From Sinorhizobium garamanticum (lineage in GTDB: Bacteria > Pseudomonadota > Alphaproteobacteria > Rhizobiales > Rhizobiaceae), in the NCBI RefSeq assembly GCF_029892065.1, contig NZ_CP120373.1, positions 806,001 to 870,000 on the forward strand: DNA of 64,000 nt, given 5' to 3'. Position numbers and translations under genes: made by a program. This document shows positions 18,480-34,498 of this stretch, one piece after another. Below the pieces are notes generated by a model. It saw only the letters and a list, made by a program, of their open reading frames with translations. It made no database searches and was not told where the DNA came from. The stretch's first letter is position 1; every line of letters starts with the position of its first letter.

Positions 18480-19062
18480 GGAGGTCCTCACCTACGTCAA
18501 GGGACTGTGGTTGCTCATCCAGGGCAACCGCGAGGGCTTTCGCTGGCTGGACATCAGCGAAAGCGGCCTGTGGCGCTCGTTCGCGGCAATACTCTGGTCT
18601 CTGCCGGCGATCGCCGTGACCTGGGCATCCTGGCGGCTCTACTACCTTGCGGCCATGCCGGCCGGCACGACAATCGGCTTCGGCTTCATCGTGAAGCTGC
18701 TTGTCGTCGATCTCGCCAGCTGGCTGCTGCCGATCATCCTGATCGTCATCCTGTCCCGGCCGCTGGGTTTTGCGATTTTTGTGGTGCCGGTGATCGTTAC
18801 CACCAATTGGCTCTCGGTGCCGCTTTCCTACGCCATGGCGCTGCCTGCCGCGATCCGTCTGCTGATCCCGGGCAGTCAGGGGCTGACCAGCCTGATCTGG
18901 CTCCTGCTGCTGGTCGTCAGCGTCGGCTTGCTCTTCCGGCTTCTGCGCACCGTCACCGGCAACCAGACCTTGCTGGCGGCCGCGCTGACGACACTCTTCC
19001 TGCTGCCGTCGATGATGATCGGCGAGTTACTGCAGCGCTTCTTTGGTCTTGTTCCAAGTTAG
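18466..19062 (+). CDS. Hypothetical multi-pass membrane protein, overlaps dapE
   Basis: A 198-residue protein with four to five hydrophobic segments (around residues 35-60, 68-100, 100-125, 140-160 and 165-185). The first 35 residues are amphipathic and polar ([20 protein letters not shown]). I do not recognise a characterised family; similar genes follow dapE in other rhizobia as far as I recall. The ATG lies within dapE (14-bp overlap in another frame). Its TAG stop (19060-19062) shares two bases with the left end of a 274-bp repeat, so the element directly abuts the gene end. Confidence 0.75.
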
Positions 19063-19334
19063 AGCCCTTCAGGGTTAAATGGAAACAGTTCTGTTGGCTC
19101 AAACGGAGTCGGATGGTCGACCGGCCGGCGCGCGGCGTAGCCAAAGCATACGGCCAAGCCGGCCGGTCGATCAGGCGGCCCGTTTCAGCCAACCCGGAGG
19201 GCCGGGCATCTTTCCGCCAGGCTCAGAGGCAATCGGCTCGGACGTACATCCGGGTACGCCCCTTCACCGATCGCCTCTGCCCTGACGAAAACCTGCTCCG
19301 GCAGAACTGCTTCCATTTAACCCTGAAGGGCTCT
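19061..19334 (+). repeat. 274-bp element with 33-bp terminal inverted repeats, copy E1
   Basis: The left end (19061-19093) starts AGAGCCCTTCAGGG and the right end (19302-19334) is its inverted copy with one mismatch. Inside are nested palindromes: TTGGCT/AGCCAA, a 12-bp TCGACCGGCCGG/CCGGCCGGTCGA pair, and CAGAGGC/GCCTCTG around a third loop. A second copy (E2) of identical length lies at 34189-34462 in opposite orientation with about eight base differences by eye. No transposase and no target duplication longer than two bases are visible. It looks like a non-autonomous MITE-like or large RIME-like element. Confidence 0.88.
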
Positions 19335-19372
19335 GGGAAAAAGCGAGTCCTGCAGGCCGCGCCTCGCGCAAC

Positions 19373-20116
19373 TCAATAATCGACCTGCATGAAGTAGAGG
19401 CCGTCCGGAGGCGCGACCGGCCCGCAGGCCTTTCGATCGCGCGCTTCGAGCGCCGCCTGCAAATCGTCCGGCGTCCACTTGCCCTCGCCCACCAACTTCA
19501 GCGAGCCGGCGAAGGAGCGAATCTGGTTGTGCAGAAAGCTCTGGGCCGTCGCGCGGATCTCTATGAGATCCCCGGCTCGCGTCACGTCTAGCCGATCAAG
19601 CGTGCGCAGCGGGCTTGTCGCCTGGCAATGGGCCGAGCGGAACGTCGTGAAGTCGTGGTGGCCGACCAGCCGTTGTGCGGCCACATGCATGGCCTCATGG
19701 TCGAGCGTCTTCGGCACCCACCAGGCACGCCTTGCTTCGAGCGCCAGCGGCGAGCGGCGGGAGATGATGCGATAGAGATAGTGGCGGCGAACCGCGGAGA
19801 AACGCGCGTCAAAACCCGGCGGCGCCTCAGCTGCGTCGAGAATCGAGACACGTTCGCCGGCAAGCGCCAGGTGGGCATTGAGCGCATTGCGCAACGTGTG
19901 CGTCTTCCATTCGCGCGTGAGATCCGCATGCGCGACCTGGCCCATGGCGTGGACGCCGGAATCGGTGCGTCCCGCCCCGCGGACGGACACCGTCTCTCCG
20001 GTCAGCGACAAGATCGCCTTCTCGATCGCGCCCTGGACGGACGGACCGTTTTCCTGTCGCTGCCAGCCGACATAGTCTGAGCCGTCGTATTCGACGGTGA
20101 GGCGATAACGCGGCAT
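19373..20116 (-). CDS. truA: TruA: tRNA pseudouridine(38-40) synthase
   Basis: A 247-residue pseudouridine synthase modifying positions 38-40 of the tRNA anticodon arm. The catalytic Asp lies in [12 protein letters not shown] at about residue 52, and [19 protein letters not shown] is the family N-terminus; FLHNQIRS is the conserved C-terminal motif. Its start overlaps the fmt stop by one base (TGATG), so translation is coupled to fmt. It is convergent with the dapE unit across the E1 repeat. Confidence 0.96.
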
Positions 20117-21051
20117 CAGGCGATCCTCGTGCCGCGGGCGACGGGCGTTCCGCGCAGGAACTCGGCGACAGCGAGCGGCTTGCCGCCGGCCTTCTGCAGT
20201 CGGGTCGGCCGCACCGCACCCTCGCCGCAGGCAATGGTCAACGCCTCGTCCAGAATGGTGCCGGCTTCGCCAGCCCCGGCGGCTTTCTCGGAATTCAGCA
20301 CCTTTATCCGTTCCGGCTTTCCGGCGATCGCCAGTTCGAACCAGGCTCCGGGAAAAGGCGAAAGACCGCGAATGTGATTGTGAACCTCGCCCGCCGGCTT
20401 GGTGAAATCGATCCGGGTTTCCGCCTTGCTGATCTTGGCAGCATAGACCGCGCCCTCTTCCGGCTGAGGCGTCAGCGGCAGGTCGCCCGCTTCGAGCTTC
20501 GCCATCGCCTCTTTCATCAAAGCCGCTCCGACCTGCATCAGCTTGTCGTGCAGCTCGCCAGCCGTCATCGTTTCGCCGATCGCAACGGCCTTGGTGAGCG
20601 CGACCGGGCCGGTGTCGAGCCCCTTGTCCATCTTCATCACCATCATGCCGGTCTCGCGGTCGCCGGCCATGATCGCGCGCTGGATGGGCGCCGCCCCCCG
20701 CCAGCGCGGCAGGAGCGACGCGTGTCCGTTGTAGCAGCCATGCCTTGTCCCCTGGAGAATCTCCTCGGGCAGGAGCAGGCCGTAGGCGACGACGACGGCG
20801 ACGTCGGCATTGAACTTGGCGAAGGTCTCGCGATCGCCGGCGTCCTTGAAGTTCGGCGGGGTCAGGACGGGGATGCCGAGAAGCTCGGCCGCCTGGTGGA
20901 CCGGCGACTTCTGCAGGTCGAGACCGCGCCGCCCGCCAGGACGCGGCGGCTGCGTGTAAACAGCGACGATCTCATGGCCTGCCTCGGCGAGGGCGACCAG
21001 CGTCGGCACCGAGAATTCCGGCGTTCCCATGAAAATGATGCGAAGCGGCAA
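20116..21051 (-). CDS. fmt: Fmt: methionyl-tRNA formyltransferase
   Basis: A 311-residue enzyme that formylates initiator Met-tRNA using 10-formyltetrahydrofolate. It begins [16 protein letters not shown]; the catalytic segment [20 protein letters not shown] with Asn, His and the later Asp is present, as is the C-terminal OB domain (about residues 210-305). It acts opposite to Def, encoded 290 bp upstream on the same strand; the gap between them is filled with two repeats, so whether def and fmt share a transcript is uncertain. Confidence 0.96.
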
Positions 21052-21118
21052 GGCGGCAAACTCCGTCTCTTGAAATCAGGCTGCGCCCCGGGATTTCCCG
21101 CACCGACGCGGCGCTCTG

Positions 21119-21230
21119 GATCACGATGATGTCGGTCGAACGGCCCAAATCACAAACGTGATCGATTCTAAATAGGTTGAGACGCGGGATGCGGGCGGAA
21201 AACCGCACACACTTTCCTCATCCCGCTCTA
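21119..21230 (+). repeat. Family B repeat, copy 2
   Basis: It begins GGATCACGATGAT and has a weaker first hairpin (GGTCG/CGGCC type), the linker ATTCTAAATAGGTTGAGA, and hairpin 2 with GCGGGATG/CATCCCGC arms and an inner GCGG-AAAA-CCGC hairpin. It is fused directly to a family A copy through the shared CTCTACAGCG. Confidence 0.82.
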
Positions 21231-21331
21231 CAGCGCCGCGCGTCTGTCAGACGCGCAAGGGACGCTGCAGCGCTTTGAATTGCTGCATGTTTTTATCCTT
21301 AAATCGGCCAGGATCTAAGGAAACATGCAGT
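21228..21331 (+). repeat. Family A repeat, copy 4
   Basis: Hairpin 1 has arms CTACAGCG and GCTGCAG with an inner GCGTCT/AGACGC stem. Hairpin 2 has arms GCATGTTT/AAACATGC and CCTTAAATC with GATCTAAGG. It ends 5 bp before the def stop codon. Confidence 0.82.
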
Positions 21332-21336
21332 GGATG

Positions 21337-21861
21337 TCAGATCGCCTTGGCGCCGCGGGTCTTGGCCGCCTTGGTGAACTTGCGGATCACCATGTCCCGC
21401 TTGAGCTTGGAGATATGGTCGATGAACAGAACGCCGTTCAGATGATCGATCTCGTGCTGCAGGCAGGTGGCAAGCAGGCCGTCCGCCTCGAGCGTCTGCT
21501 CCTTGCCGTGGCGGTCGACATATTCGACGGTGACGGCCGCTGGGCGCTCGACTTCGGCGTAGTAGTCCGGGATCGACAGGCAGCCTTCCTCGTAGACCGA
21601 GCGCTCATCGGAGGATCTGACGATTTTCGGGTTGATGAAGACGAGCGGCGTCTTCTCGTCGCCTTCCTTCGATACGTCGAGCACCAGCAGGCGCTTCGGT
21701 ACGCCGATCTGTATTGCTGCAAGGCCAATGCCCGGCGCGTCGTACATGGTTTCCAACATGTCGTCGGCGAGGCGGCGGATGTCGTCGTCAACGGTATCCA
21801 CCGGTTTGGACACCTGGCGCAGAACCGGATCGGGAAGGATGATTAGTGGCTTGATCGTCAT
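21337..21861 (-). CDS. def: Def: peptide deformylase
   Basis: A 174-residue metalloenzyme that removes the N-formyl group from nascent proteins. All three motifs are present: GIGLAAIQ (about 44-51), EGCLS with metal ligand Cys94, and HEIDH with His136, catalytic Glu137 and His140. I chose the ATG at 21861 giving [12 protein letters not shown], the usual family start, over a 14-residue extension. It is divergent from rmuC. Confidence 0.96.
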
Positions 21862-22010
21862 GCTGATCCCATAGCCGATCTTTCCGCTTGCGCGCAAGAA
21901 CATTGCCTCTCGTCAAGACCGCACACGCGGTACTTGCGGCTTGCCAAGCCGCCATATGTTTGTTCTTGTTTTGATCTGGTCTTCGGGCGCGAATCTGTTA
22001 GGCTGCCGCC

Positions 22011-23204
22011 ATGGAGCCCATCGACTTTTCCTTCGACCAGCCCTTGTTGCAGCTCGGCGCCCTGCCCGTCACGGCCGGTCATCTCGCCACGGCTGCCGCG
22101 CTTCTCATGACGCTTGCGTGCCTGATGTTCGCGCGCCGGGCGAGCTCTGCCCGCATCGGAGAGCGAGACGAGCAGATGGCGACGCTTCTTGCCGCGCAGA
22201 CGGAATTGCAGGGCCGCATCGCCGCGATGACGGATGTTTTCGGCACCCGCCAGGCGGAACTCAACCAGTCCATCAGCCAGCGCATCGACGGAATGACGCA
22301 CCGGATCGGCGCCTCGATCAGCGAGCAGACGAAAGCGACCCATGAGAACCTTCGGCGCCTGCAGGAACGGCTTGCCGTGATCGACAACGCCCAGAACAAC
22401 ATTCAATCGCTGGCCAAGGACATGGCCGGGCTGCAGAACATTCTGGCAAACAAGCAGACGCGCGGGGCCTTCGGCCAGTCGCGCATGGAAGCGATCGTTG
22501 CCGACGGGTTGCCGATGGGCGCTTTCGCCTTCCAGGCAACACTTTCGAACGGCGCCCGTCCGGATTGCACGATCCGCATGCCGAACGGCCAGCCGCCGCT
22601 TGTCATCGACGCGAAGTTTCCGCTCGAAGGATGGAACGCAATGCGCGACGCGGCGACGGCCGAGCGGCGGCAGCAGGCGGCGCAGGCCTTCCGCCGCGAC
22701 ATGGAAGTGCATATCCGCGATATCGCCAGCAAGTATCTCTTGCCGGGAGAAACGCAGGAGACGGCCTTCCTCTTTGTTCCTTCCGAGTCGATCTTCGCCG
22801 AGATCCACGAACACTTCGAGGCGATCGTGCAGAAGGCGCATCGCCAGCGCATCGTCATCGTCTCGCCGTCACTGCTGCTTTTGTCGATCCAGGTGATCCA
22901 GGCGATCCTGAAGGATGCCCGCATGCGCGAGCAGGCGCACCTGATCCAGGGCGAAGTCGCGCGCCTGATGGACGACCTTTCACGGCTCGACGAACGTGTG
23001 CGCAAGCTCCAGGGTCATTTCGCCATGACGCAGAAGGATGTCGAGGACATCCTCATCTCGTCGGACAAGCTTACGAGGCGCGGCGCCAAGATCGAGGCGC
23101 TGGAACTCGCGGCCGAAGCCGTGCCCGGAGACGGCGAGCAAGGCGGACGGCCCCTCGACAACCGGATGGGGCAATTGAAGCTTCGGGTGGTTGACGAGGA
23201 CTGA
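22011..23204 (+). CDS. rmuC: RmuC family DNA recombination protein
   Basis: A 397-residue protein with an N-terminal membrane segment (about residues 22-42), a long coiled coil (about 50-150) and the RmuC nuclease-like core, including VIDAKFPLEGWNAM, KYLLPGETQETAFLFVPSE and the C-terminal coiled region. In E. coli RmuC limits recombination at inverted repeats, by genetic evidence; that is of interest here because the window is rich in inverted repeats, but a link is only speculation. It is followed by rbsK 51 bp downstream. Confidence 0.93.
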   Translation: MEPIDFSFDQPLLQLGALPVTAGHLATAAALLMTLACLMFARRASSARIGERDEQMATLLAAQTELQGRIAAMTDVFGTRQAELNQSISQRIDGMTHRIGASISEQTKATHENLRRLQERLAVIDNAQNNIQSLAKDMAGLQNILANKQTRGAFGQSRMEAIVADGLPMGAFAFQATLSNGARPDCTIRMPNGQPPLVIDAKFPLEGWNAMRDAATAERRQQAAQAFRRDMEVHIRDIASKYLLPGETQETAFLFVPSESIFAEIHEHFEAIVQKAHRQRIVIVSPSLLLLSIQVIQAILKDARMREQAHLIQGEVARLMDDLSRLDERVRKLQGHFAMTQKDVEDILISSDKLTRRGAKIEALELAAEAVPGDGEQGGRPLDNRMGQLKLRVVDED

Positions 23205-23255
23205 CGCGGTCGGGCACTCTTCGCGAAAGTCAATAATCCGACGGGGCATCTCCAC

Positions 23256-24155
23256 ATGATCACTGTCCTTGGGTCCATCAACATGGACCTAATCGCCACG
23301 ACCGCGCGCCTGCCGAAGCCTGGCGAAACCGTTGCCGGGACCGGCTTTTCCACCGCCGCCGGCGGCAAGGGTGCAAACCAGGCGCTGGCCGCCCGCCGCG
23401 CCGGTGCGTCGGTGCGCATGGCCGGCGCGGTCGGCTGGGACAGCTTCGCCGAAGGCGCGCTGGCGCTGTTGAAAGCGGCCGGCGCCGACCTTAGCCTCAT
23501 CAAGACCGTCGATTCCCCCACCGGCACGGCGCATATCATCGTCGGCGGCGATGGCGAAAACGTCATCGTGGTCGTCGCCAGCGCCAACGCGACCATGAGC
23601 GAAAGCGACGCAACGGCGGCGCTCGATCAGATGTCGCCCGGCGATACGCTGATGCTACAGCTCGAAATTCCCGCCGCTTCGGTCGAGAAGGCGCTTGTGG
23701 AAGCCAAACGCCGCGGTATCCGCTCGATCATCAACATCGCCCCGCTGACGCCCGAAGCCGCCCGTCTCGGCCGGATGGCCGATATCGTGATTGCCAACGA
23801 AACCGAATTCGAACTCTTGGCCGGCAAGAGCGGCATCGACGGCGCCGAGCGCGAGGCGGCGATGAAGCGGCTCCACGACGAGACCGGCCGGACCGTGATC
23901 GTCACGCTTGGCGCCGACGGCGTGATCGCCATTCACGACGGTGCCGTTCATCGCGCCAAGGGCCTGACCATCGAACCCGTCGACACGGTCGGCGCCGGCG
24001 ACACTTTCTGCGGCTATCTGGCCGCGGGCCTCGACGCTGGCCTCCCCTTCCCCGATGCGCTGCGGCAAGCGGCGGTCGCCGGATCGCTTGCATGCCTCAA
24101 GCCCGGTGCCCAACCGGCAATACCGCTGGCATCCGAGGTCGCGGCCCGTCTGTGA
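23256..24155 (+). CDS. rbsK: RbsK: ribokinase
   Basis: A 299-residue PfkB-family sugar kinase that phosphorylates ribose to ribose 5-phosphate with ATP. It starts ITVLGSINMDLI with the substrate-binding Asp; the GGKGANQALAARRAG signature is at about residue 39, and the DTVGAGDTFCGYLAAGL anion-hole and catalytic Asp motif is at about residue 245. It follows rmuC by 51 bp, but no ribose transporter genes are adjacent. A nucleoside hydrolase encoded at 27.2 kb could supply ribose. Confidence 0.93.
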   Translation: MITVLGSINMDLIATTARLPKPGETVAGTGFSTAAGGKGANQALAARRAGASVRMAGAVGWDSFAEGALALLKAAGADLSLIKTVDSPTGTAHIIVGGDGENVIVVVASANATMSESDATAALDQMSPGDTLMLQLEIPAASVEKALVEAKRRGIRSIINIAPLTPEAARLGRMADIVIANETEFELLAGKSGIDGAEREAAMKRLHDETGRTVIVTLGADGVIAIHDGAVHRAKGLTIEPVDTVGAGDTFCGYLAAGLDAGLPFPDALRQAAVAGSLACLKPGAQPAIPLASEVAARL

Positions 24156-24330
24156 GACAACGCCTCCTTTCGCCTCCCATTTGCGCCCGCTTCGCAAACC
24201 CGACAGTTTACGTCGCGCCGATTAAACTCGGCGGGCAAAACTTGCGTGCCGCGACTATGATTTAGCCTCGGCGTTGGCTGGATCTTAAGATTTGATCCTC
24301 TATTCAGACGCATGAGAAGGTCGACCGCAC

Positions 24331-24434
24331 CTACAGCGCCACGAGTCTAATCAGACGCGCAAAGGACGCTTTAGCACTTTGAAGTGCTGCATGTTTTATC
24401 CTTAAATCGGGTACGATTTAAGGAAACATGCAGT
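24331..24434 (+). repeat. Family A repeat, copy 5
   Basis: It starts CTACAGCG and ends GCAGT. Hairpin 1 has GAGTCT/AGAC pairing; hairpin 2 pairs GCATGTTT with AAACATGC and CCTTAAATCG with CGATTTAAGG perfectly. It lies in the 405-bp gap before the chemoreceptor gene. The flanks 24156-24330 and 24435-24560 show no other feature apart from a TGAGGA ribosome-binding site at 24551-24556. Confidence 0.85.
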
Positions 24435-24560
24435 AAGGTTTGGCTGCCTCCTTCGTGCCGGTTGGCATCTGGCGCTCCATGACGGAGTTTCACCCCACAA
24501 TTCGGAATGCGTCACGCCGTGGGCGGCAAACCCGCGGACCTCTCAGTATGTGAGGATTTC

Positions 24561-26951
24561 ATGTTCAAGTTCCAAGCCAAATCACTGGCGACCAAACTGA
24601 TCGCTGTGACAGGCGGTACGATCGCACTCGTGCTGCTCGCCTCGAATTTCGTTCTCATCTCCCAGACACAGGATCGCGTCGAGACGCTGGTCTTCGATGG
24701 AGCTCAGGCCGAAGCACGAGCCATCGCCTCCGACATTGCGGGAAGCGTCGGCGAACTCGCCGCCGCCGCGCGCACCATGTCGGGAGTGCTTGGCCGCGGT
24801 CACGCCGGAAAATCGACCGATCGCGTCGGCGCGATCAACCTCCTCAAGGCCAATCTCGAGCAGCACAGCTTTGCGTTCGGCAGTTGGTTCGCGGAAGAGC
24901 CGAAGGCATATGATGGGCGCCAGGAAGACGTGGTCAACAACAAGGAACTTGGCGGCAACGAGGAAGGCGTCTTCACGCCCTATTGGTCGAAGGACCGCAA
25001 CGGCGAAGCGCAGTTCTCGACCTTCAAGGCGGACTATGCCGCCGAGTGGTACAGCCTGGCTGCCAAGAGCGGCAAGGGTGCAATCACCCAGCCCTACCTC
25101 GCCGAAGGGACCGACGTCCCCACCACGATGAGCTCGATCGCCTATCCGGTGATGTCCGACGGCAAGCTGATCGGCGTCTCCGGCGTCGACATTTCGCTCG
25201 CCTCGCTCGCCGATGACCTCGCAAAGCTCAAGCCTTTCGGCACGGGCCGGGTCTACCTTCTGTCACAGAGCGGCAAATGGCTCGTGTCGCCGATCCCCGA
25301 TCTGTTGACGAAAGACTATGACGGCGAAGGCGCCGATATCGTCAAGGACGCCCTGTCGTCGGCGACGTCCGGCATGATCAAGAACCTCACTTATGACGGA
25401 AACGAGCCCTTCGATCGCGTCGTCTATCCCTTCAAGCTGCCCAACGTGAATGCCAACTGGGTCGTGCTCGTCGATGTGCCGCACACGGCAATCAACGCGC
25501 CGGTCCGCGATCAGACCTATATGATGATCCTCGGCGGTCTTGTCGTCCTCGGCGCCGTGCTCGCCGGCCTCTATTTCGCAGTTCGCGGCTTCGTGCAGAA
25601 ACCGCTGGCAGGCCTTGTCAGCGACGTTCAGACGCTCAGCAACGGCGACTATACCCGGCCGATCGCCGGCCAGGATCGCTCGGACGAAACCGGTTCCGTT
25701 GCCAAGGCGCTGGAAGGCTTCCGCCATCAGCTCGCTGACACCAAGCGCCTCGAAGGAGAAGCCCGCCACCAGCGCGAGCAGGCGGAATTGCAACGCAGCC
25801 GCTCGGAAACCGAGCGCGCCGAGAGCGGTGCCCTGCAGCGCGATATCGTCGCCCGCCTCGGCAACGGCCTGTCGCATCTTGCATCCGGCGACCTCGCCTT
25901 CCGCATCACCGACGAATTCCCTGGTGAATACGCGCAGCTGAAGCGTGACTTCAACGCGACCATGGAGAGCCTCGAGGAGACCATCCGGACCGTCAATCAC
26001 TCGGTCGTCAACATCGGCAGCGGTACCTCCGAGATCAGCAATGCCGCCAACGACCTGTCGCACCGGACGGAACAGCAGGCCGCGAGCCTCGAAGAAACCG
26101 CAGCCGCCCTCGACCAGCTCACCTCCCAGGTGAACGCCAGCGCCGAGAACGCCAAGGTCGCGGCAAAATCGGTCGAGGTGGCTAGCAGCGACGCCGGGCG
26201 GTCCGGCGAGGTCGTGCAGAAGGCAATCGCGGCCATGCGGGGTATCGAGCAATCCTCCCACGAAGTCAGCCGGATCATCGGCGTTATCGATGAGATCGCC
26301 TTCCAGACGAACCTGCTGGCGCTTAACGCAGGCGTCGAGGCTGCGCGCGCCGGTGACGCCGGCAAGGGTTTCGCGGTCGTCGCCCAGGAGGTCCGCGAGC
26401 TTGCACAGCGCTCGGCAAACGCTGCGAAGGAGATCAAGACGCTGATCAACACCTCCGCAGGCCAGGTCCGCGAGGGCGTAGACCTTGTTGGCAAGGCGGG
26501 CAGCGCGCTCGAGAAGATCGCCGAGCAGGTGGTGCAGATCAACAGCCTGATCCGCCAGATCTCAAGTTCCGCCTCGGAACAGGCGGTCGGCCTGAAGGAG
26601 ATCAATTCCGCCGTCAACCAGATGGATCAGGTGACCCAGCAGAACGCGGCGATGGTCGAAGAAACGACGGCCGCCAGCATGGCGCTGAACGACGAAGCCG
26701 GCGCATTGAGCGCGCTGGTCTCCCGGTTCCGTGTCGCTCAGCAGGCGCCGGCGCAATCCTCGTCCGAGATGTTGCGCGGTGCAGCCGAGCGGATGCGCGC
26801 GGCGGAACGTCCCGCCTCTCCTCCGCCTGCCGCTAAAGACAGCCGGACCGCCACGGCACGCACCGGCAGCTATTCGACATCGACGCAGCGCGTCCTTGCC
26901 CAGACATCCGGTGCCAACGCGCTCGCCCACGACAATTGGGAAGAGTTCTGA
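24561..26951 (+). CDS. mcpX: Methyl-accepting chemotaxis protein with dCACHE sensor (McpX-like)
   Basis: A 796-residue chemoreceptor. A first membrane helix at about residues 12-32 is followed by a large periplasmic double-CACHE sensor (about 35-310), a second helix (about 318-340), HAMP domains, and a long signalling hairpin with the conserved tip EIAFQTNLLALNAGVEAARAG at about residue 577. The C-terminus is NWEEF, a CheR/CheB-tethering pentapeptide. Domain type and position beside rbsK match S. meliloti McpX (from memory), a sensor of quaternary ammonium compounds such as betaines; the ligand here is inferred. The ATG at 24561 follows TGAGGA; an upstream start at 24507 is less likely. Confidence 0.82.
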   Translation: MFKFQAKSLATKLIAVTGGTIALVLLASNFVLISQTQDRVETLVFDGAQAEARAIASDIAGSVGELAAAARTMSGVLGRGHAGKSTDRVGAINLLKANLEQHSFAFGSWFAEEPKAYDGRQEDVVNNKELGGNEEGVFTPYWSKDRNGEAQFSTFKADYAAEWYSLAAKSGKGAITQPYLAEGTDVPTTMSSIAYPVMSDGKLIGVSGVDISLASLADDLAKLKPFGTGRVYLLSQSGKWLVSPIPDLLTKDYDGEGADIVKDALSSATSGMIKNLTYDGNEPFDRVVYPFKLPNVNANWVVLVDVPHTAINAPVRDQTYMMILGGLVVLGAVLAGLYFAVRGFVQKPLAGLVSDVQTLSNGDYTRPIAGQDRSDETGSVAKALEGFRHQLADTKRLEGEARHQREQAELQRSRSETERAESGALQRDIVARLGNGLSHLASGDLAFRITDEFPGEYAQLKRDFNATMESLEETIRTVNHSVVNIGSGTSEISNAANDLSHRTEQQAASLEETAAALDQLTSQVNASAENAKVAAKSVEVASSDAGRSGEVVQKAIAAMRGIEQSSHEVSRIIGVIDEIAFQTNLLALNAGVEAARAGDAGKGFAVVAQEVRELAQRSANAAKEIKTLINTSAGQVREGVDLVGKAGSALEKIAEQVVQINSLIRQISSSASEQAVGLKEINSAVNQMDQVTQQNAAMVEETTAASMALNDEAGALSALVSRFRVAQQAPAQSSSEMLRGAAERMRAAERPASPPPAAKDSRTATARTGSYSTSTQRVLAQTSGANALAHDNWEEF

Positions 26952-26973
26952 GCCCACGATGGAAATGGACAAC

Positions 26974-27004
26974 AAGACGGCGCCCGAGAGGCGCCGTCTT
27001 CGTA
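26974..27004 (+). terminator. Hairpin terminator after the chemoreceptor gene
   Basis: A perfect 11-bp stem (AAGACGGCGCC with GGCGCCGTCTT) and 5-nt CGAGA loop, 22 bp after the stop codon. The following tract is only weakly T-rich, so it may act as an RNA 3'-end stabiliser as well. Confidence 0.75.
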
Positions 27005-27036
27005 TGAAGTAACGGGTTACCCGCGGAGGGGGCCGA

Positions 27037-27142
27037 TAGATCATTTCCTTGTTTCATTGAAACCGTGAAATGATCTAACCCTTTGAGATGACGCAATTCC
27101 GGACGGAAAAACCGTTACACACTGTTCCTGGAATTGCTCTAA
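27037..27142 (+). repeat. Family B repeat, divergent subfamily (copy 6)
   Basis: It has the same layout as family B but different stem sequences. Hairpin 1 pairs GATCATTTC (27039-27047) with GAAATGATC (27067-27075). The linker is CTAACCCTTTGAGAT. Hairpin 2 pairs GCAATTCC (27093-27100) with GGAATTGC (27130-27137) and keeps an inner ACGG/CCGT hairpin. It ends GCTCTAAC. Confidence 0.78.
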
Positions 27143-27149
27143 CGGGAGG

Positions 27150-28094
27150 TCAGATACGCGCCAGGCGCTCCGTCAGGAGATCAAAAAAGCCCTCGTCGTC
27201 GATGTGGCGCATCACCTTGGCATTGTGCTCGCGGCCGGTGACCTGCCACCAGTCGACGACGGTCATGCCGGCCGTCAGGGCGGACGTCGTCTCGATCTCG
27301 ACGTTGCAGTCGCGCCCGGTGAACAGTTCCGGGCGCAGCAGGTAGGCGATCACCGTCGGGTCATGCAGCGGCCCGCCGTCTGTGCCATATTTTTCGATGT
27401 CGAAGCGCTCGAAGAACTCCAGCATTTCGGCCATCGCGATCGCCGCGGGACTGCCGATCGCGCGAATCTTCTGGACGCGGGCCTTGTGGGTCAGGACGCG
27501 ATGCGTGACGTCGAGCGGCATCATCACGATCGGGATGCCGGAGCGGAAAACGATTTCGGCGGCTTCCGGATCGACGTAAATATTGAATTCCGCCGCCGGC
27601 GTGATGTTGCCGCCCTCGAAAAACCCGCCGCCCATCATCACCAACTCGCGCACCCGCGGTGCGATCTCCGGCGCCTTCGTCAGGGCAAGCGCGATGTTGG
27701 TCAAGGGGCCGAGAGTGCAGAGCGTGACCGTGCCCGCGTCCTCGGCGAGGAGCGTCTCGATGATGAAATCGACGGCGGCCTGTTCCTGCAGCGGCATCGT
27801 CGGCTCCGCCAGCACCGGCCCGTCGAGCCCCGTCTTGCCATGGACATGCTCCGCCGTGACCAGCGGGCGCGCGACCGGCCGCTCCGCCCCCGCGAAGACC
27901 TTCACATCCGTTCTGTTGCAAAGCTCGCAAATGATGCGTGCGTTGCGGGCTGTCAGCGAAAGCGGAACGTTACCGGCGACAGTGGTGATGCCAAGGAGGT
28001 CGATCTCCTCCGGACTACCGAAGGCGAGCATGATGGCGGCTGCGTCGTCCTGCCCAGGATCGGTGTCGATGATAATCTTTCTCGCGTTTGACAC
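27150..28094 (-). CDS. Inosine-uridine-type nucleoside hydrolase
   Basis: A 314-residue nucleoside hydrolase that splits ribonucleosides to base and ribose. The calcium-binding Asp cluster is in IIIDTDPGQDDAAA (Asp10, Asp12, Asp16, Asp17), with TVAGNV and the C-terminal GPLHDPTVIAYL Asp. I chose a GTG start at 28094 because AGGAGG lies nine bases upstream; this shortens the reading by 20 residues. It is a lone minus-strand gene. Ribose released could feed RbsK encoded 3 kb away. Specificity (pyrimidine or broad) cannot be told from sequence. Confidence 0.9.
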   Translation of the reverse strand: MSNARKIIIDTDPGQDDAAAIMLAFGSPEEIDLLGITTVAGNVPLSLTARNARIICELCNRTDVKVFAGAERPVARPLVTAEHVHGKTGLDGPVLAEPTMPLQEQAAVDFIIETLLAEDAGTVTLCTLGPLTNIALALTKAPEIAPRVRELVMMGGGFFEGGNITPAAEFNIYVDPEAAEIVFRSGIPIVMMPLDVTHRVLTHKARVQKIRAIGSPAAIAMAEMLEFFERFDIEKYGTDGGPLHDPTVIAYLLRPELFTGRDCNVEIETTSALTAGMTVVDWWQVTGREHNAKVMRHIDDEGFFDLLTERLARI

Positions 28095-28156
28095 TTTCTC
28101 GATCCTCCTGGGCCACGATGATAGCTGATCTCTTTGATCCGAGAACATGGCCAATT

Positions 28157-28219
28157 CTCTAAGATATCGAAGTAGGATTCAGACGGAAACCGCTTGGCAC
28201 TTCCTCTTCCCGCTCTGAT
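28157..28219 (+). repeat. Family B fragment (right half), copy 4
   Basis: Only the second hairpin region is left: ATTCAGACGGAAACCGC with CTCTTCCCGCTCTG. It lies in the 263-bp gap between the nucleoside hydrolase and hsp20 genes, which are divergent. The rest of that gap is the hsp20 leader. Confidence 0.55.
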
Positions 28220-28314
28220 CTGGCGCAGCGAACTATGATTTGCGTGCGCAGCCGAGGCAAGCGGCTTGCACTCGTTGCTCACAGCTACCATATTGCGGCG
28301 TGGATGCTGCTTGG

Positions 28315-28354
28315 CAGGTCCGCAAAGATGGTCGCTTGAGCTGCAAGGACTTGG
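28315..28354 (+). promoter_or_regulatory. Candidate start-site hairpin (RNA thermometer-like) before hsp20
   Basis: CAGGTCC (28315-28321) can pair with GGACTTG (28347-28353), and GCA (28322-28324) with TGC (28342-28344), leaving an AA bulge (28345-28346). The AAGGA ribosome-binding site at 28345-28349 is thus partly inside an imperfect stem with one G-U pair. Rhizobial small heat-shock genes are known to use ROSE thermometers built on the same principle. This is a hand fold, not a computed one. Confidence 0.45.
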
Positions 28355-28357
28355 GAA

Positions 28358-28789
28358 ATGAGCAGGATCACGCCCTTTACCAGCCCGCTACTGCTGGGCT
28401 TTGACACGATGGAAAAGACCCTTGAGCGCATCGCCAAGGGCAATGACGGATATCCACCCTATAATATCGAGCGCATTCGCGGCGACGCATCTTCGGATGC
28501 GCCGGAACGGCTGCGGATCACGCTCGCCGTCGCCGGCTTCTCCGAGGAGGACCTGGACGTCACGACGGAAGAAAACCAGCTGGTCATTCGCGGCCGCCAG
28601 GTCGATACGGGCGAGCGGGATTACCTGCACCGCGGCATTGCCGCCCGGCAGTTCCAGCGCACCTTTGTTCTCGCAGACGGCATGAAGGTCCTCGGGGCCG
28701 AGTTGCGCAACGGTCTTCTCTCAGTCGACCTCGTGCGGCCCGAACCGGTCCGTATGGTAAAGAAAATTAACATTTCCGTCCCAGAGTAG
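28358..28789 (+). CDS. Hsp20/IbpA-family small heat-shock protein
   Basis: A 143-residue alpha-crystallin-domain chaperone that holds unfolded proteins during heat stress in the cytoplasm. The N-terminal segment MSRITPFTSPLLLGFDTME and NGYPPYNIERI-like NDGYPPYNIERI are typical of rhizobial class A HspA/IbpA proteins; the crystallin fold runs from about residue 35 to 135 with the LRNGLLSVDLVRPEP strand, and a short tail follows. A DUF1150 gene follows 47 bp later, a pairing common in Rhizobiales. Heat control through the leader hairpin is likely. Confidence 0.93.
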   Translation: MSRITPFTSPLLLGFDTMEKTLERIAKGNDGYPPYNIERIRGDASSDAPERLRITLAVAGFSEEDLDVTTEENQLVIRGRQVDTGERDYLHRGIAARQFQRTFVLADGMKVLGAELRNGLLSVDLVRPEPVRMVKKINISVPE

Positions 28790-28836
28790 GATAACCGGCG
28801 GGATTCTCCCCTGTCCGGCGACCACGGAGTGTCACC

Positions 28837-29094
28837 ATGGGACTGAAAGCCATCAACACATCGCTGTCGAAGAACGACCTTGCGCATCTCGGCGAGGGCG
28901 AAGTCGGCTATATCCGCAAGATGCGTTCGGAGGAGGTCTCCCGCTGTTTCCCGGAAGCTCCCGAGATGGGACCCGGAATCGACCTGTGGGCCCTGTTCGG
29001 CGCCGACGGCACACCGATCCTTTTGACCGACAATCGGTCCAGCACCTTCTTCAAGGCAGCCGAGGACGATCTTCGTACCGTCAGCCTGCATTGA
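28837..29094 (+). CDS. DUF1150 family protein, hsp20 partner gene
   Basis: An 85-residue protein matching DUF1150: LSKNDLAHLGEGEVGYIRKM and DLWALFGADGTPILLTDNR are the family's conserved blocks. No signal peptide or membrane segment. Function is unknown; its constant position after small heat-shock genes in rhizobia suggests a stress-related role in the same operon. It starts 47 bp after hsp20 with a GGAG-like site. Confidence 0.85.
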   Translation: MGLKAINTSLSKNDLAHLGEGEVGYIRKMRSEEVSRCFPEAPEMGPGIDLWALFGADGTPILLTDNRSSTFFKAAEDDLRTVSLH

Positions 29095-29164
29095 GCGGCT
29101 GGCGAATATTCTCTTTGTCCAGGCCTACGAGCGCTATCATCGACGCGGCGTGAGTCGCCCTTAT

Positions 29165-29310
29165 CCGGCCTGCCGGCCACCTTCTCCCCGCCAGCGGGGA
29201 GAAGGTGACTCGCGGAGCCGCCTCAGCCCCCTCCCGGCGAGCGGGAGTGGGCCACTGCATGTTCCTTAAGTCGTAGCCGGACGTGCAAAGAACGCTGTAG
29301 CGTGAAGGAC
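29165..29310. repeat. Intergenic hairpin cluster with degenerate family A remnant
   Basis: A perfect 13-bp stem, CACCTTCTCCCCG (29178-29190) with CGGGGAGAAGGTG (29195-29207), is followed by a second GC-rich palindrome (CTCCCGGCGAGCGGGAG) and then a decayed family A copy (GCATGTTCCTTAAGTCG ... GAACGCTGTAG). It separates the convergent DUF1150 and trmB genes and may end transcription in both directions. The CCTTCTCCCCG palindrome type is, as I recall, widespread in rhizobial intergenic DNA. Confidence 0.65.
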
Positions 29311-29324
29311 AAAATCCAAGGGTC

Positions 29325-30026
29325 CTAAACGCGCCGGAAGGTGAGATAGGCGGAGCTCCGCCCTTCCCGGCGCGCCTTGGCCTCGTAGCGCGTGCTCGGC
29401 CAACCCGTGAAAGGCGTAAGCCAGTCGGCTGATTTTTCCGCCGTCCACTCGAAGGCCGCGTGATCGCGGCAGTGAAGCAGCGTCCAATTGACATAGGTGT
29501 CGATGTCCGAGGCGAAGCAGAAGAGGCCGCCGGGCTTCAGGATGCGCGCAAACCGATCCAGGTTGACCTTGGAAACGAAGCGCCGCTTCCAGTGCTTCCG
29601 CTTCGGCCAGGGATCGGGATAGAGCAGGTCGATCTGGTCGACGGAAGCCTCCGGCAGCCAGTCCAGCACCTGCGTCGCGTCGTCGTCATAGAGCCGGATA
29701 TTGGCGATCTCTCGCGCCTCGATCTGTCCGAGCAACTTCGCCATCGAGTTGACGAAGGGCTCGACGCCGATGAAGCCGGTTGCGGGATCCTCCGCGGCGC
29801 GGTGAACGAGATGCTCCCCGCCACCAAACCCGATTTCCAGGCGAATGCGCTTCACCGGCTGCGGGAAGAGCGTCGTCAGGTCAGCTGGCGCCGGCTCAGC
29901 GAGATCGAGCCGGAGCGCGGGCAGCAGATGCGCAAGATGGCCAGCCTGGCGCTCGCGCAAGGGCTTGCCCTTGCGGCGGCCAAAGAAGGCCTCCGTGGCT
30001 CTGGCGCGGCGCGGTTCGGTCATCAC
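29325..30026 (-). CDS. trmB: TrmB: tRNA (guanine-N7-)-methyltransferase
   Basis: A 233-residue class I methyltransferase that makes m7G46 in tRNA. The SAM-binding motif [10 protein letters not shown] is at about residue 69 and the signature [18 protein letters not shown] at about residue 136. The N-terminus is rich in Arg, as usual. It is the last gene of the long minus-strand cluster, 250 bp after metK, with a family A repeat in between. Confidence 0.95.
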
Positions 30027-30152
30027 GATCTTCCTTCAAACAGCAAAGCGGACACTCCACCGGGAGCATCCGCTCTTGATCCCGCAATGTGGTGCGCCTG
30101 AATAGCAGCGCACCGGACCATTGCAATATTTTTCAACGCCCGTGGCTTCGCT

Positions 30153-30254
30153 ACTGCATGGTTCCGTAAATCCTAGCCGATTTAAGGATAAAACATGCAG
30201 CAACTCAAAGTGCTACAGCGTCCTTTGCGTGTCTGAAAAGACGCGAGGCGCTGT
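30153..30254 (-). repeat. Family A repeat, copy 6, between metK and trmB
   Basis: Inverted orientation. Hairpin 2 pairs AAATC with GATTT and GCATG with CATGC; hairpin 1 (GCGTGTCT with AGACGCG) is imperfect. The remaining part of the 249-bp gap shows nothing else. Confidence 0.8.
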
Positions 30255-30275
30255 GGAAGCAAGTCAACAGCAGCG

Positions 30276-31559
30276 TCAGGCAGCGCGGCCGGATGCTCTC
30301 GGTTCGGAGTAGGCAGCCGCGTCAAGCTCGATCGCTTCCTTCAGCGGCTTGACGAGATCGAGCTTCTCCCAGGAGAATGAACCATCGCGGCCGGCCTTGC
30401 GGCCGAAATGGCCGTAAGCGGCGGTCTTGGCATAGATCGGCTTGTTGAGGTCGAGGTGGCGACGGATGCCCGACGGCGAGAGATCCATCGTCTTGCGGAT
30501 GGCATTTTCGACTTGGTCTTCCGTGACCTTGCCGGTGCCGTGCAGATCCACATAGATCGACAGCGGCTGGGCAACGCCGATCGCATAGGAAAGCTGGATC
30601 GTGCAGCGGTCGGAAAGGCCGGCGGCGACGACATTCTTCGCCAGATAGCGCGCGGCGTAAGCCGCCGAGCGGTCGACCTTGGTCGTGTCTTTGCCCGAGA
30701 ATGCGCCGCCGCCATGCGGGGCTGCGCCACCATAGGTGTCGACGATGATTTTGCGACCGGTCAAGCCGGCGTCGCCGTCGGGTCCGCCGATGACGAACTT
30801 GCCGGTCGGGTTGATGTACCAGGAGCAATCGTCGGAGATCTTCAGATCGGCGAGTGCTTCGCGGATATAGGGTTCGACGACGGAGCGGACCTTGGCGGAG
30901 TCCCAGCTCTCATCGAGATGCTGCGTCGAAAGCACGATCGAGGTGACTTCGGCCGGCTTGCCATCGACATAGCGCACGGTCACCTGGCTCTTGGCGTCAG
31001 GTCCGAGCTTGGCAACTTCGCCTTCGCCCTTCTTGCGGGCGGCCGCAAGCGTCTGCAGGATACGGTGCGAGTAGTAAAGCGGCGCCGGCATCAATTCGGC
31101 CGTCTCGCGGCAGGCATAGCCGAACATGATGCCCTGGTCGCCGGCACCTTCCTCGCCCTGCTTGTCGGAAGCGTTGTCGACGCCTTGCGCGATGTGAGCC
31201 GACTGGAAGTGCAAGAGCACGTCGATCTTCGCCGTCTTCCAGTGGAAACCGTCCTGCTCATAGCCGATGTCGCGGATCGCCTTGCGGGCGGCGGACTTGA
31301 ACTTCGACGGATTGATGACTTCGTTGCCGTTCTTGTCCTTCTTCAGGAGGCTCGGAGGCAGGCGGACTTCGCCGGCGATCACGACGCGGTTCGTCGTTGC
31401 CAGTGTCTCACAGGCAATGCGCACACCCCAGGGATCAACGCCCGTCTTCGCCGCTTCGCGGTAGACCAGATCGACGATCTCGTCGGAAATACGGTCACAC
31501 ACTTTGTCCGGATGACCTTCGGCTACGGATTCACTCGTGAACAGGTAGTTTGCGCGCAT
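30276..31559 (-). CDS. metK: MetK: S-adenosylmethionine synthetase
   Basis: A 427-residue enzyme forming SAM from methionine and ATP. It begins [20 protein letters not shown] with the ATP-binding His; [31 protein letters not shown] and the C-terminal block [13 protein letters not shown] are present. It is slightly longer than the E. coli enzyme through alphaproteobacterial inserts. SAM made here is the methyl donor for TrmB and other methyltransferases encoded in the window. A strong palindrome lies 74 bp before the start (see 31633) and a separate promoter is likely. Confidence 0.96.
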
Positions 31560-31632
31560 GCGGGAAGTCCCCTCAATGAAAGAAGCGGTGCGAACGTGTT
31601 AGTGGTTTTGCCGTCGAAAAACAAGCGAACAA

Positions 31633-31656
31633 CGACATAAATATATCTTTATATCG
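31633..31656 (-). promoter_or_regulatory. 24-bp palindromic operator candidate before metK
   Basis: The half-sites CGATATAAA and TTTATGTCG are inverted copies with one mismatch around a GATATA centre. It lies 74-97 bp upstream of the metK start. It is AT-rich in GC-rich surroundings and resembles, from memory, the operators of SahR, the ArsR-type S-adenosylhomocysteine-responsive regulator of methionine-cycle genes in Proteobacteria. The regulator assignment is inference. Confidence 0.6.
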
Positions 31657-31679
31657 ATATTGCCACCTGAACGGTCCAC

Positions 31680-31754
31680 CTGCACGTTTCCTTAAATCGT
31701 ACGCGATTTGAGAGTGCGGCAGCGTCCTTTGCGTGTCCGATAAAGTGGAGCGGC
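31680..31754 (-). repeat. Degenerate family A repeat, copy 7
   Basis: It keeps GCACGTTTCCTTAAATCG...CGATTTGAG and GCAGCGTCCTTTGCGTG, but the arms are shortened. It lies between the phrR terminator and the metK promoter. Confidence 0.65.
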
Positions 31755-31770
31755 TGAAGGGAAAGCGCGC

Positions 31771-31802
31771 AAAAAAAGCGGCACTCGGGCCGCTTTGTTT
31801 TT
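31771..31802 (-). terminator. Intrinsic terminator after phrR
   Basis: An 8-bp stem AAAGCGGC/GCCGCTTT with a 6-nt loop, followed on the minus strand by a run of T residues. It separates phrR from metK, so metK probably has its own promoter. The opposite strand also has a T-rich tail. Confidence 0.88.
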
Positions 31803-31823
31803 GTGGTCAGTGAACTACCCCGA

Positions 31824-32243
31824 TTATTCGGCTTCAGCCTCGGCGGCCAATGCCTTTACCAGATCCACCAGCTTCCGGCGCACCTTAGGGTCGGAAATCT
31901 TGACGAAGGCGCGGTTGAGCTGAAGTCCTTCGGAGGACGACAGGAAATCAACCACGTAGTTGGAACTTGAGGTCTCAGCCATGCCGGATACGCCGCCGGC
32001 GCCTTCCCCAGGAGCATCCTCGAAGAAGAACGATACCGGGACGTTGAGAATTGAAGAAATGTTCTGCAACCGGCTCGCGCCGACGCGGTTCGTTCCCTTC
32101 TCGTATTTCTGGATCTGCTGGAAGGTGATCCCCAGGGCTTCGCCGAGCTTTTCCTGGCTCATGCCGAGCATCGTCCGGCGGAGGCGAATCCTGCTCCCGA
32201 CATGGATGTCGATCGGGTTCGGCTTCTTCTTGTTTTCAATCAT
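31824..32243 (-). CDS. phrR: PhrR/PraR-type XRE family regulator
   Basis: A 139-residue DNA-binding protein. The Cro/CI helix-turn-helix (about residues 13-68) includes GSRIRLRRTMLGMSQEKLGEA and ITFQQIQKYEKGTNR; the C-terminal part ends in acidic residues. In S. medicae WSM419 the acid-induced regulator gene phrR lies beside actA (lnt), and the orthologue PraR controls adhesion and quorum-sensing genes in other rhizobia; position and sequence match that gene. I chose the ATG at 32243 because the 41 residues before it are not part of the family. lnt ends 147 bp upstream on the same strand. Confidence 0.87.
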   Translation of the reverse strand: MIENKKKPNPIDIHVGSRIRLRRTMLGMSQEKLGEALGITFQQIQKYEKGTNRVGASRLQNISSILNVPVSFFFEDAPGEGAGGVSGMAETSSSNYVVDFLSSSEGLQLNRAFVKISDPKVRRKLVDLVKALAAEAEAE

Positions 32244-32389
32244 GTCCGCGTTCCTAAACACGCTGTTTCGGGTGCCCGCAACCTGGCATCGCGCAGATCG
32301 CTCCGTCGCAACCTTACCGGCAACCAAGAGCCCCACCCGCGGGTGAAGGTTGAGGGATTCGGCCACTATGCAATTTTAGGGGTTTTAGG

Positions 32390-33985
32390 TCAATTCTTCC
32401 TAATATTGAAACCAACGCGCGAAAATGCTGCAACCAAAAAGAGTATTCCGGCTGTCAACCAGAAGATTCGACCGCGCGTCGCGGTATTGGTTACGTTAAG
32501 CATTTTTCCCGGCAGAATTGTGTCTGTAACCCCCTTGTAATTGTATCCCAATCCTACCACTAAAACACCACGTGCATCAACAATTGCTGATATACCGTTG
32601 TTGGCTGCCCGGATCATCGGCGTTCCGGTCTCGACTGCGCGCAACTGCGCCTGGTGAAAATGCTGGCGCGGACCGGGAGTGTCGCCGAACCAGGCGTCGT
32701 TCGTGATGTTGAGCAGGAAATCGGCCAAAGGGCCGTTGCCATCGATCTCGTCGGGGAAGATCGCTTCATAGCAGATAAGCGGATAGGCCGTCTTGCCGCC
32801 CGGCAGGGTAAGAAGCGCACGGCTCTGGGCAGGCGAAAAGCCGCCGGGCATCGAGGCCGCGATAGCGCTTAGCCCCCAGGAGGCAAGAACGTCTTCGAAC
32901 GGCAGATATTCGCCGAAGGGGACAAGGTGAACCTTGTCTGCCGCACCGACGATCTGGCCGCGATCGTCGATAACATAGATCGAGTTGTAATAGCGCCGCG
33001 GCAGGCCGGCCCCGGCATCTTCGACGCGCACGGCACCGGCAATGAGGACCTGCCCGTCCTCCAAGACCTCTGCGATGCGGGCCAGCGCGTCCGGGTTGTC
33101 GGTGAGTATGAATGGGATCGACGTTTCCGGCCAAACAATGATGTCCGGACGTTTTCCGCCGTCCATCGCCGGTGCGGTCGTGAGAACGAGATGCTCCTCG
33201 AAGACCGATGAGCGTTCGCGGTCATCGAGCTTTTTCGCCTGGTCGACCACCGGCTGAACCAGGCGCACCGTCAACTCAGGCGCCAGCGGTTGAGGCGCCG
33301 GCTGGGCAAGACGATAGAAGCCGAAAGCCAGATGCGCGGCAAAGAGCGCGACGGCAATTGCGAGGCCCGCACGCGCGCCCTTGCCGGTGGCTATGAGAGC
33401 AGGTGCCGCAAACACGAAGACCGCGAGCATGTTGATCGTTGCAAGGTTCACGACGCTCGCCGACTGCATCATCAGAGGCATCGGCATCAAGGCATAGCCG
33501 ATGGCATTCCAGGGAAAGCCCGTGAACAGAAACCCGCGGAGCCATTCCGCGACGCCGAAGCCGAATGCAAGGGCTGCGATCCTGCCCAGGCCGTCAGACC
33601 AGAGACAACGCGCCAGCGCGACTGCAAGGGCGTAAAAAAGCGCGAGAGCGGCGGGCAGGCCGACGACGGCGAGCGGCAGCGCCCAGGCAAAAAGATCCGC
33701 CTCGATCAGCAAGGCGTTGCCAAGCCACCAGAGGCCGCCAAGGAAGTAGCCGAAGCCGAAGCTCCAGCCGATCGACAAGGCCGGCCAAAGCCTTGCGAGC
33801 CGGCCTTTTTCAGGATCACCCGGCGCGCCATCGATCAGCCAGACGAGGACAGGAAACGAGACGAAAGCGGCCGCGAAGATGCCGAGGGGCGGCTGGGTGA
33901 GAACTGTCAAGAGCCCCGCGAGGAAGGCGATAAATACCCGCGACACCCCGGAGAGGAGCATAATCCTGCCTGCCAGCCTTGCCAT
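32390..33985 (-). CDS. lnt: Lnt (ActA/CutE): apolipoprotein N-acyltransferase
   Basis: A 531-residue inner-membrane enzyme that adds the third acyl chain to lipoproteins. About seven membrane helices fill residues 10-225 and one lies at the C-terminus. The nitrilase-like periplasmic domain has catalytic Glu287 (WPETSIPF), Lys351 (ADKVHLVPFGEYLPF) and Cys405 (YPLICYEAIFPDE). In S. medicae the same gene, actA, is needed for acid and copper tolerance. I chose the ATG at 33985, preceded by GGAGG, over a 58-residue upstream extension that runs through repeat-flanking DNA. LspA, the preceding step in lipoprotein maturation, is encoded at 57.7 kb. Confidence 0.94.
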   Translation of the reverse strand: MARLAGRIMLLSGVSRVFIAFLAGLLTVLTQPPLGIFAAAFVSFPVLVWLIDGAPGDPEKGRLARLWPALSIGWSFGFGYFLGGLWWLGNALLIEADLFAWALPLAVVGLPAALALFYALAVALARCLWSDGLGRIAALAFGFGVAEWLRGFLFTGFPWNAIGYALMPMPLMMQSASVVNLATINMLAVFVFAAPALIATGKGARAGLAIAVALFAAHLAFGFYRLAQPAPQPLAPELTVRLVQPVVDQAKKLDDRERSSVFEEHLVLTTAPAMDGGKRPDIIVWPETSIPFILTDNPDALARIAEVLEDGQVLIAGAVRVEDAGAGLPRRYYNSIYVIDDRGQIVGAADKVHLVPFGEYLPFEDVLASWGLSAIAASMPGGFSPAQSRALLTLPGGKTAYPLICYEAIFPDEIDGNGPLADFLLNITNDAWFGDTPGPRQHFHQAQLRAVETGTPMIRAANNGISAIVDARGVLVVGLGYNYKGVTDTILPGKMLNVTNTATRGRIFWLTAGILFLVAAFSRVGFNIRKN

Positions 33986-34148
33986 ACAGCCTCCAATAGA
34001 CGCGGGATCACCGCTCGACCCCTGCGCAGGAAAAACGACCGAATCATTCCGCGGCAGTGTTCCAAAAAAGCGGCTGCTTGTCCCGATCGCATACGTTGCA
34101 CGCCATGGCATCGCGCAAGGAATCGGAAGAGGTTCTTGGGCTATCCCA

Positions 34149-34186
34149 GATCGTTTCACCGGTTTCGCCGATACGGTGAAACGATC
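34149..34186. repeat. Perfect 13-bp hairpin beside E2
   Basis: GATCGTTTCACCG (34149-34161) pairs with CGGTGAAACGATC (34174-34186). It sits three bases from the end of E2. The first hairpin of the family B variant at 27039 has a similar GATC-TTTC arm. It may be a repeat fragment or a terminator before lnt. Confidence 0.7.
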
Positions 34187-34188
34187 CC

Positions 34189-34462
34189 AGAGCCCTTCAG
34201 GGTTAAATGGAAGCAGTTCTGCCGGAGCAGGTTTTCGTCAGGGCAGAGGCGATTGGCGAAGGGGCGTACCCGGATGTACGTCCGAGCCGATCGCCTCTGC
34301 GCCTGGCGGAAAGATGCCCGGCCCTTCGGGTTGGCTGAAACGGGCCGCCTGATCGACCGGCCGGCTTGGACGTATGCGTTGGCTACGCCGCGCGCCGGCC
34401 GGTCGACCATCCGACTCCGTTTGAGCCAACAGAACTGTTTCCATTTGACCCTGAAGGGCTCT
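34189..34462 (-). repeat. 274-bp element with terminal inverted repeats, copy E2
   Basis: Same length as E1 (19061-19334) and in opposite orientation, with about eight differences by eye. Terminal arms of 33 bp have two mismatches. The internal CAGAGGCGAT/ATCGCCTCTG stem is intact here, while E1 has one mismatch. It fills most of the 513-bp gap between corC and lnt; the rest (33986-34148, 34463-34498) shows only the hairpin at 34149. Confidence 0.88.
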
Positions 34463-34498
34463 CACTGCTTGAAATAGGGAAGGCGGCCGCCGGTACGG

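Follow-up and report, generated by a model that had tools for sequence, protein, structure and literature searches.

The inverted pair of sequences E1 and E2 in Sinorhizobium garamanticum very probably represents a transposable element (MITE) of the IS630/Tc1-mariner type that is non-autonomous and carries no genes, present here in two copies. The window analysed was a stretch of 64,000 nucleotides (NZ_CP120373.1, positions 806,001 to 870,000; contig C1). The status of a non-autonomous mobile element, as proposed in the first-pass annotation, is well supported by the presence of multiple copies, by empty orthologous sites, by exact empty alleles in Rhizobium, and by the IS630-like ends. The element is short (272 bp), carries no transposase gene and is bounded by matched terminal inverted repeats. 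Its TA target is duplicated, with empty sites both between species and between strains.

The two copies in the window

BLAST comparison of E1 with E2 gave 97.08% identity over 274 bases, corresponding to eight differences, in agreement with the positions, the opposite orientation and the approximate number of differences in the first-pass annotation. The inverted arms extended over 282 nt (19057-19338 and 34185-34466; 97% complementary). The length of 274 bp reported there includes one flanking base per side; each copy is 272 bp when counted from GAGC to GCTC. The 33-bp terminal inverted repeats (97% over 33 bases), the nested internal palindromes, which correspond to two hairpins, and the lack of a transposase were likewise confirmed, the open reading frames (ORFs) that cross the element being mechanical. 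The features are as follows.

19062..19333, + strand: E1, 272 bp; 3' of an uncharacterised 198-codon ORF, and convergent with truA
34190..34461, − strand: E2, 272 bp; between corC and lnt, both genes on the − strand
19060..19061, no strand: left target dinucleotide of E1, TA; relatives read CTAG at the same place
19334..19335, no strand: right target dinucleotide of E1, now TG
34188..34189, no strand: left target dinucleotide of E2, which today reads CA where relatives show one TA (GATCTAACTC)
34462..34463, no strand: right target dinucleotide of E2, now TC
19061..19093, + strand: left terminal repeat of E1, 33 bases, 97% complementary to the right repeat
19302..19334, − strand: right terminal repeat of E1, partner of the left repeat
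19093..19193, no strand: hairpin 1 of E1; self-inverse match of 74%; folds
about 19201..19302 (limits approximate), no strand: hairpin 2 of E1; folds; the corresponding part of another copy gives an inverse match of 73% to E1 145-246
19137..19159, + strand: tip motif GTA(C/G)C..TACG(G/T)CC(A/G)AGC in hairpin 1 of E1 (C1:825137-825159)
19236..19257, − strand: tip motif in hairpin 2 of E1, on the opposite strand (C1:825236-825257)
34266..34287, + strand: tip motif in E2 (C1:840266-840287)
34364..34386, − strand: second tip motif in E2 (C1:840364-840386)

The TAG stop codon of ORF 18466-19062 is formed by the left target TA of E1 together with the first G of the element.

Other repeats were also observed in the window. 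A second repeat family, D1, was located at 5268-5351, 21247-21330, 24351-24434, 41191-41274 and 55327-55410 (62-87% identity to the reference). Inverted relatives were seen at about 30152-30254, and a D1-like stretch (GCACTTTGAATTGCTGCATGTC...) was found inside the elements of G011 and G024 (L191, L192), as repeats nested in repeats. A 53-base palindrome at 4136-4188 and 61428-61480 (96% identical) starts with CTAGAGC or CTAAAGC and finishes with GCTCTAG; with ends like those of an IS630-type element, it perhaps represents another short TA-inserted family. An intergenic repeat pair, D3/D4 (8668-8774 and 36189-36293; 88% over 59 bases), contains GANTC (methylation-type) sites.

Target site and empty alleles

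The target of the element is TA, mostly within (C/T)TA(A/G), and it is duplicated upon insertion. When the copies of the S. garamanticum genome were aligned, the element started at TA|GAGC and finished at GCTC|TA. The end-finding script favoured TA and GAGC with a bonus, and the ends of these copies were also clear in an unanchored alignment. TA was present on both flanks of 18 of the 23 near-full copies, and among these 18 the flanks read (C/T)TA..TA(A/G) in 17 and CTA..TAG in seven. As the background, 103 of the 963 TA sites of the window fit (C/T)TA(A/G), as did 29 of the 119 noncoding ones in the 23.5-kb region 13914-37413. The remaining five copies, including E1 (TA/TG) and E2 (CA/TC), lack an intact TA pair, one or both dinucleotides being altered. 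The duplication has thus decayed in both copies of the window, so that the first-pass annotation, which relied on these two, recorded no clear target duplication; for the family that statement is wrong.

Empty sites were then read at orthologous loci. At the E1 site no element match was found in 29 loci of other genomes of the genus, of which 28 retained both flanks; three further truA-matching genomes stand outside this count. Two of these loci (L074, L075) read AAGCTAGCG, where the upstream gene has its stop codon; other loci read GGCTAGCG. At the E2 site no element match was detected in 29 other loci, 28 of which gave some match to both flanks; the intergenic stretch was too divergent to align in about half of these loci, and again three further genomes lie outside the count. 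The closest relatives read GATCTAACTC here, with one TA. The possibility raised at first pass, that orthologous loci never lack the element, was thus not borne out at either site. At the same stop-codon TA of the E1 site, four loci of other Sinorhizobium species (L076, L077, L079 and L081) carried different palindromes, starting with TAAAGCG or TAGAGCATCC, as if this TA were an insertion hot spot.

Empty and filled alleles were also compared between strains. For three insertions in Rhizobium plasmids, queries made by joining the two flanks matched some records contiguously and others in two parts split by the element. Six empty alleles were read for these insertions and all ran through a single TA, as in the empty GGGGTTAAGG versus the filled GGGGTTA[element]TAAGG, indicating that insertion duplicates TA. 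At two of the plasmid sites compared for empty alleles (L414, L415), the element is replaced in some strains by additional sequence of about 480 or 610 bases that contains a VOC-family gene or a hypothetical one.

Copies, placement and candidate enzyme

The S. garamanticum genome (6.83 Mb, three contigs) contained 23 near-full copies in addition to partial ones. The search of this genome and the genus suggested at first pass thus revealed a multicopy element, and the alternative that only two copies exist in the genus proved untenable, since 29 of 33 genus genomes, this one included, gave matches. Identity to E1 was 94-100% for 22 near-full copies (E1 counted) and 84% for one; together with the lack of the element at orthologous sites, this agrees with the recent spread that had been suggested. 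By contig, 22 of the 23 were on C1 and one on C2, with none listed on C3. On C2 we also observed a one-hairpin derivative (near 1855983-1856151; L417) that retains the two terminal repeats and is flanked by TA at either end, indicating that the ends can persist when half of the core is lost. At C1:1431718-1434207 (L416), two direct copies (1431718 and 1433932) surround about 1.9 kb and might form a composite unit or one prone to deletion; the ORFs between them resemble those for a ferredoxin and a CarD-type regulator.

Among the 29 matching genus genomes, the best E value was below 1e-20 in 24 of the 33 searched, and the remaining five gave short or weak matches. Matches were obtained in 35 of 247 genomes of the family sample (17 below 1e-20) and in 10 of 297 genomes of the order sample, six of them outside the family. 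Among the five extra-family matches listed, two had the element layout (L396, L397) and three did not; both ends of L397 were TA-flanked. A pattern scan of named genomes detected at least 120 stretches, and the 80 listed were mostly from Rhizobium, with Ensifer, Agrobacterium, Neorhizobium and others also represented. Among plasmids, 202 of 72,556 records matched. Phage origin was rejected, as no element match was found among 50,697 phage records. Identity to the S. garamanticum elements reached 96-97% in G022, where truA was just 82% identical, and was 96-97% in G023, with truA at 84%. Interspecies transfer of the element, or strong constraint on it, would explain this difference; transfer is favoured over constraint because the orthologous sites are empty.

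The placement of the copies relative to genes was examined with a gene call based on codon usage and trained on 16 ORFs of the window, in which some neighbouring calls score low. Twelve of the 23 near-full copies lay between convergent genes and 11 between tandem genes, whereas no copy was flanked by divergent genes or located inside a gene; a cruder call, which mis-assigned E1, gave nine convergent, 13 tandem and one unclear, and the codon-usage call was preferred. In 10 of the 11 tandem cases, the copy was closer to the 3' end of the upstream gene than to the next start. For eight of the 23, the TAG stop codon of the neighbouring gene consisted of the target TA and the first G of the element, and on the Rhizobium plasmid pPR2 an annotated hydrolase gene terminates inside the element. 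Insertion into the TA of a stop codon would probably be harmless, as the first base of the element completes TAG, and copies landing in genes or promoters would be lost; the location at gene 3' ends is probably attributable to these two effects.

An IS630-family transposase would recognise the GAGC... ends and move the element in trans. A 25-base end pattern was scanned genus-wide, with up to three mismatches allowed. Of its 53 matches in the S. garamanticum genome, 51 fell in element copies or fragments; the other two, both TAGAGCGTTTCCGGGTTTGATTGAA, were the left ends of two IS630-family copies, located at about 329 kb on C3 and about 392 kb on C2. The reversed pattern, used as a control, gave no match across 33 genomes. 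The transposase of this IS630 family, with two frames joined, contains a DDE_3 domain. No insertion sequence with ends identical to those of the S. garamanticum element was found; within this genome the nearest was three mismatches from the degenerate 25-base pattern, at the left end only. In a separate family sample of 121 genomes, 69 gave an IS630 match. Of 30 loci examined, 17 had a TA-flanked inverted end pair, three of which look spurious, leaving 14 (1.02-1.09 kb). The better end of these 14 pairs agreed with element repeats at 13-23 of 25 bases (at least 16 in 11 of the 14), and the highest likeness, 23 of 25, was to the repeats of a Rhizobium element. Random TA sites reached at least 16 in 20 of 3000 draws, part of which were element ends themselves; the IS630 ends were compared with 10 element repeats and the random draws with 13. 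No end pair was detected in the other 13 of the 30 loci nor in 12 of 16 further IS630 loci, including those of the element-carrying genomes G112, G060 and G024, so that a partner within the same genome was seen for S. garamanticum alone. Since many IS630 loci gave no end pair, the putative enzyme partner is assigned to the IS630 family and not to one insertion sequence.

IS630 insertion sequences of Rhizobiaceae resemble the element in their TA target, GAGC-type ends and 25-base terminal pattern, but they encode a transposase and measure about 1.02-1.09 kb, the comparison being of end sequences only. A bacterial precedent is RUP of Streptococcus pneumoniae, an IS630-linked MITE of 107 bp, which is described as short and intergenic, with a TA target, IS630-like ends and no coding capacity (PMC2229807). 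Unlike RUP as described there, the present element is about 272 bp long and contains a pair of internal hairpins with a conserved tip motif, and its terminal repeats differ strongly between host lineages.

Internal structure and alternative readings

The predicted fold of the element is Y-shaped, with the terminal-repeat stem closed by two internal hairpins. Folding z-scores of E1 were −13.2 (DNA), −13.0 (RNA, plus strand) and −16.8 (RNA, minus strand), and in each case none of 200 shuffles folded as well. For structural comparison, 110 candidate loci were collected; one was without a match, 17 of the 109 were partial, shortened or badly ended copies, and five more were dropped for orientation (L051, L059, L144, L148, L149), leaving 87. 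Terminal repeats vary strongly between lineages yet remain self-complementary, with 20-24 of 24 bases pairing in full-length copies of most lineages. With one element for each of 32 genomes, identity averaged 80% for the core and 72% for the terminal repeats, and the repeats were less alike than the core in 365 of 496 genome pairs. In the best pairs with the S. garamanticum element, core and repeat identities were 90% and 54% for G042, 85% and 54% for G168, and 66% and 44% for G112; those for G082 were 87% and 25%, its outer end being poorly located by the script. G239 and G157 showed the opposite trend, with the core at 61-63% and the repeats at 85-87%; in several members of the genus the two parts were similarly conserved.

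The tip motif was counted in 90 elements (the 87, with L051 and L059 restored and L397 added). TACGNNCRAG was present on both strands in 68, on one strand in 18 and on neither in four; it occurred on both strands in three of 18,000 mononucleotide shuffles, the motif having been picked after the sequences were viewed. The longer tip pattern occurred 41 times in the S. garamanticum genome, by coordinates always within element copies. By plain local alignment, hairpins 1 and 2 were not significantly alike (score 11 versus a shuffled maximum of 14); their likeness is significant at the tip motif only, with the same reservation as to how the motif was picked.

It is rather improbable that the element is mainly a structured RNA or a 3'-end regulatory element (a bidirectional terminator or mRNA stabiliser) kept by the host, with ancient or incidental mobility. 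Such a role would fit the very stable fold of E1, the conservation of the core across lineages and the placement of the copies, which avoid divergent genes and in tandem arrangements lie mostly near the upstream 3' end. One strand also folds better than the other (E1, −196 kcal/mol for the minus versus −175 for the plus strand; alignment, −115.9 versus −92.5). The structures predicted for the two strands have 67 pairs in common; at these, however, G-U (59 cells) was barely above A-C (40), and 22 pairs leaned toward G-U versus 15 toward A-C. When short mismatches were filled, the counts became 167 and 62, an excess that came mostly from one pair. Pair changes in the terminal stem were mostly from Watson-Crick to Watson-Crick, orthologous loci lack copies, and Rfam 15, searched at its curated gathering score, gave no match in the whole window. 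The evidence that the element functions as RNA is equivocal.

We also consider it unlikely that the element belongs to a Rhizobium repeat already described, for instance RIME (Rhizobium-specific intergenic mosaic elements), in which case only the transposon reading would be new. RIMEs hold two large palindromes. As described, they are likewise intergenic repeats of rhizobia, and an S. medicae plasmid among the plasmid matches listed carries a near-full copy of the element at 81%. RIMEs are, however, described at the chvI two-component locus, and no element match was found around pckA in 30 loci (best E about 0.1) or in 20 pckA-chvI-chvG stretches of genus genomes, which are not known to include the original RIME strains. 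When 13 of these 20 regions were searched for inverted repeats, nothing resembling the element was detected. For S. meliloti 1021, 374 annotations of RIMEs and Sm repeats are described, whereas among the 60 plasmid records listed, out of 202, those of S. meliloti gave just matches of about 100 bases at 76-78%. Compared by description, the Sinorhizobium RIME, Sm and A/B/C repeats resemble the element in being intergenic, palindromic and multicopy in rhizobia; at the chvI region, the 20 genomes carry no copy of the element. Going by titles and abstracts, no paper was recognised as describing this element. Far less credible is the proposal that E1 and E2 work as a switch inverting the 15-kb truA-lnt segment, or that local gene conversion maintains their likeness. 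Being long, inverted and 97% identical, the two would in principle be sufficient for homologous recombination, but the order and relative strand of truA and corC were the same in all 31 genomes, S. garamanticum included, that carry both on one contig (in two of the 33 the genes are on different contigs). The inversion considered possible in the first-pass annotation found no support, and the switch was rejected on this constancy. Local gene conversion, suggested there as well, is not needed, as eight other copies outscore E2 against E1.

As for the IS630-type MITE itself, its double-hairpin interior is probably under selection of its own, because it is kept across lineages with strongly different terminal repeats. 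As a guess, it may perhaps be a DNA structure that binds protein, or resemble a terminator acting in both directions. More tentatively, though this is doubtful, the core may represent a selected module in its own right, which during the history of Hyphomicrobiales has repeatedly swapped its terminal repeats, and presumably transposase partners, recruiting whichever IS630 transposase is around; a host or transposase protein would then bind at the tip motif, which is present once per strand.

These findings turn an unexplained inverted pair into a defined family of mobile elements with known ends, target and hosts and a likely enzyme class, and the clean empty alleles can be used for dating insertions in rhizobia. 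If the interior is indeed selected and the ends are exchanged, gene-less elements would be able to carry a functional structure between transposase families, and this combination would be a reason for their success.
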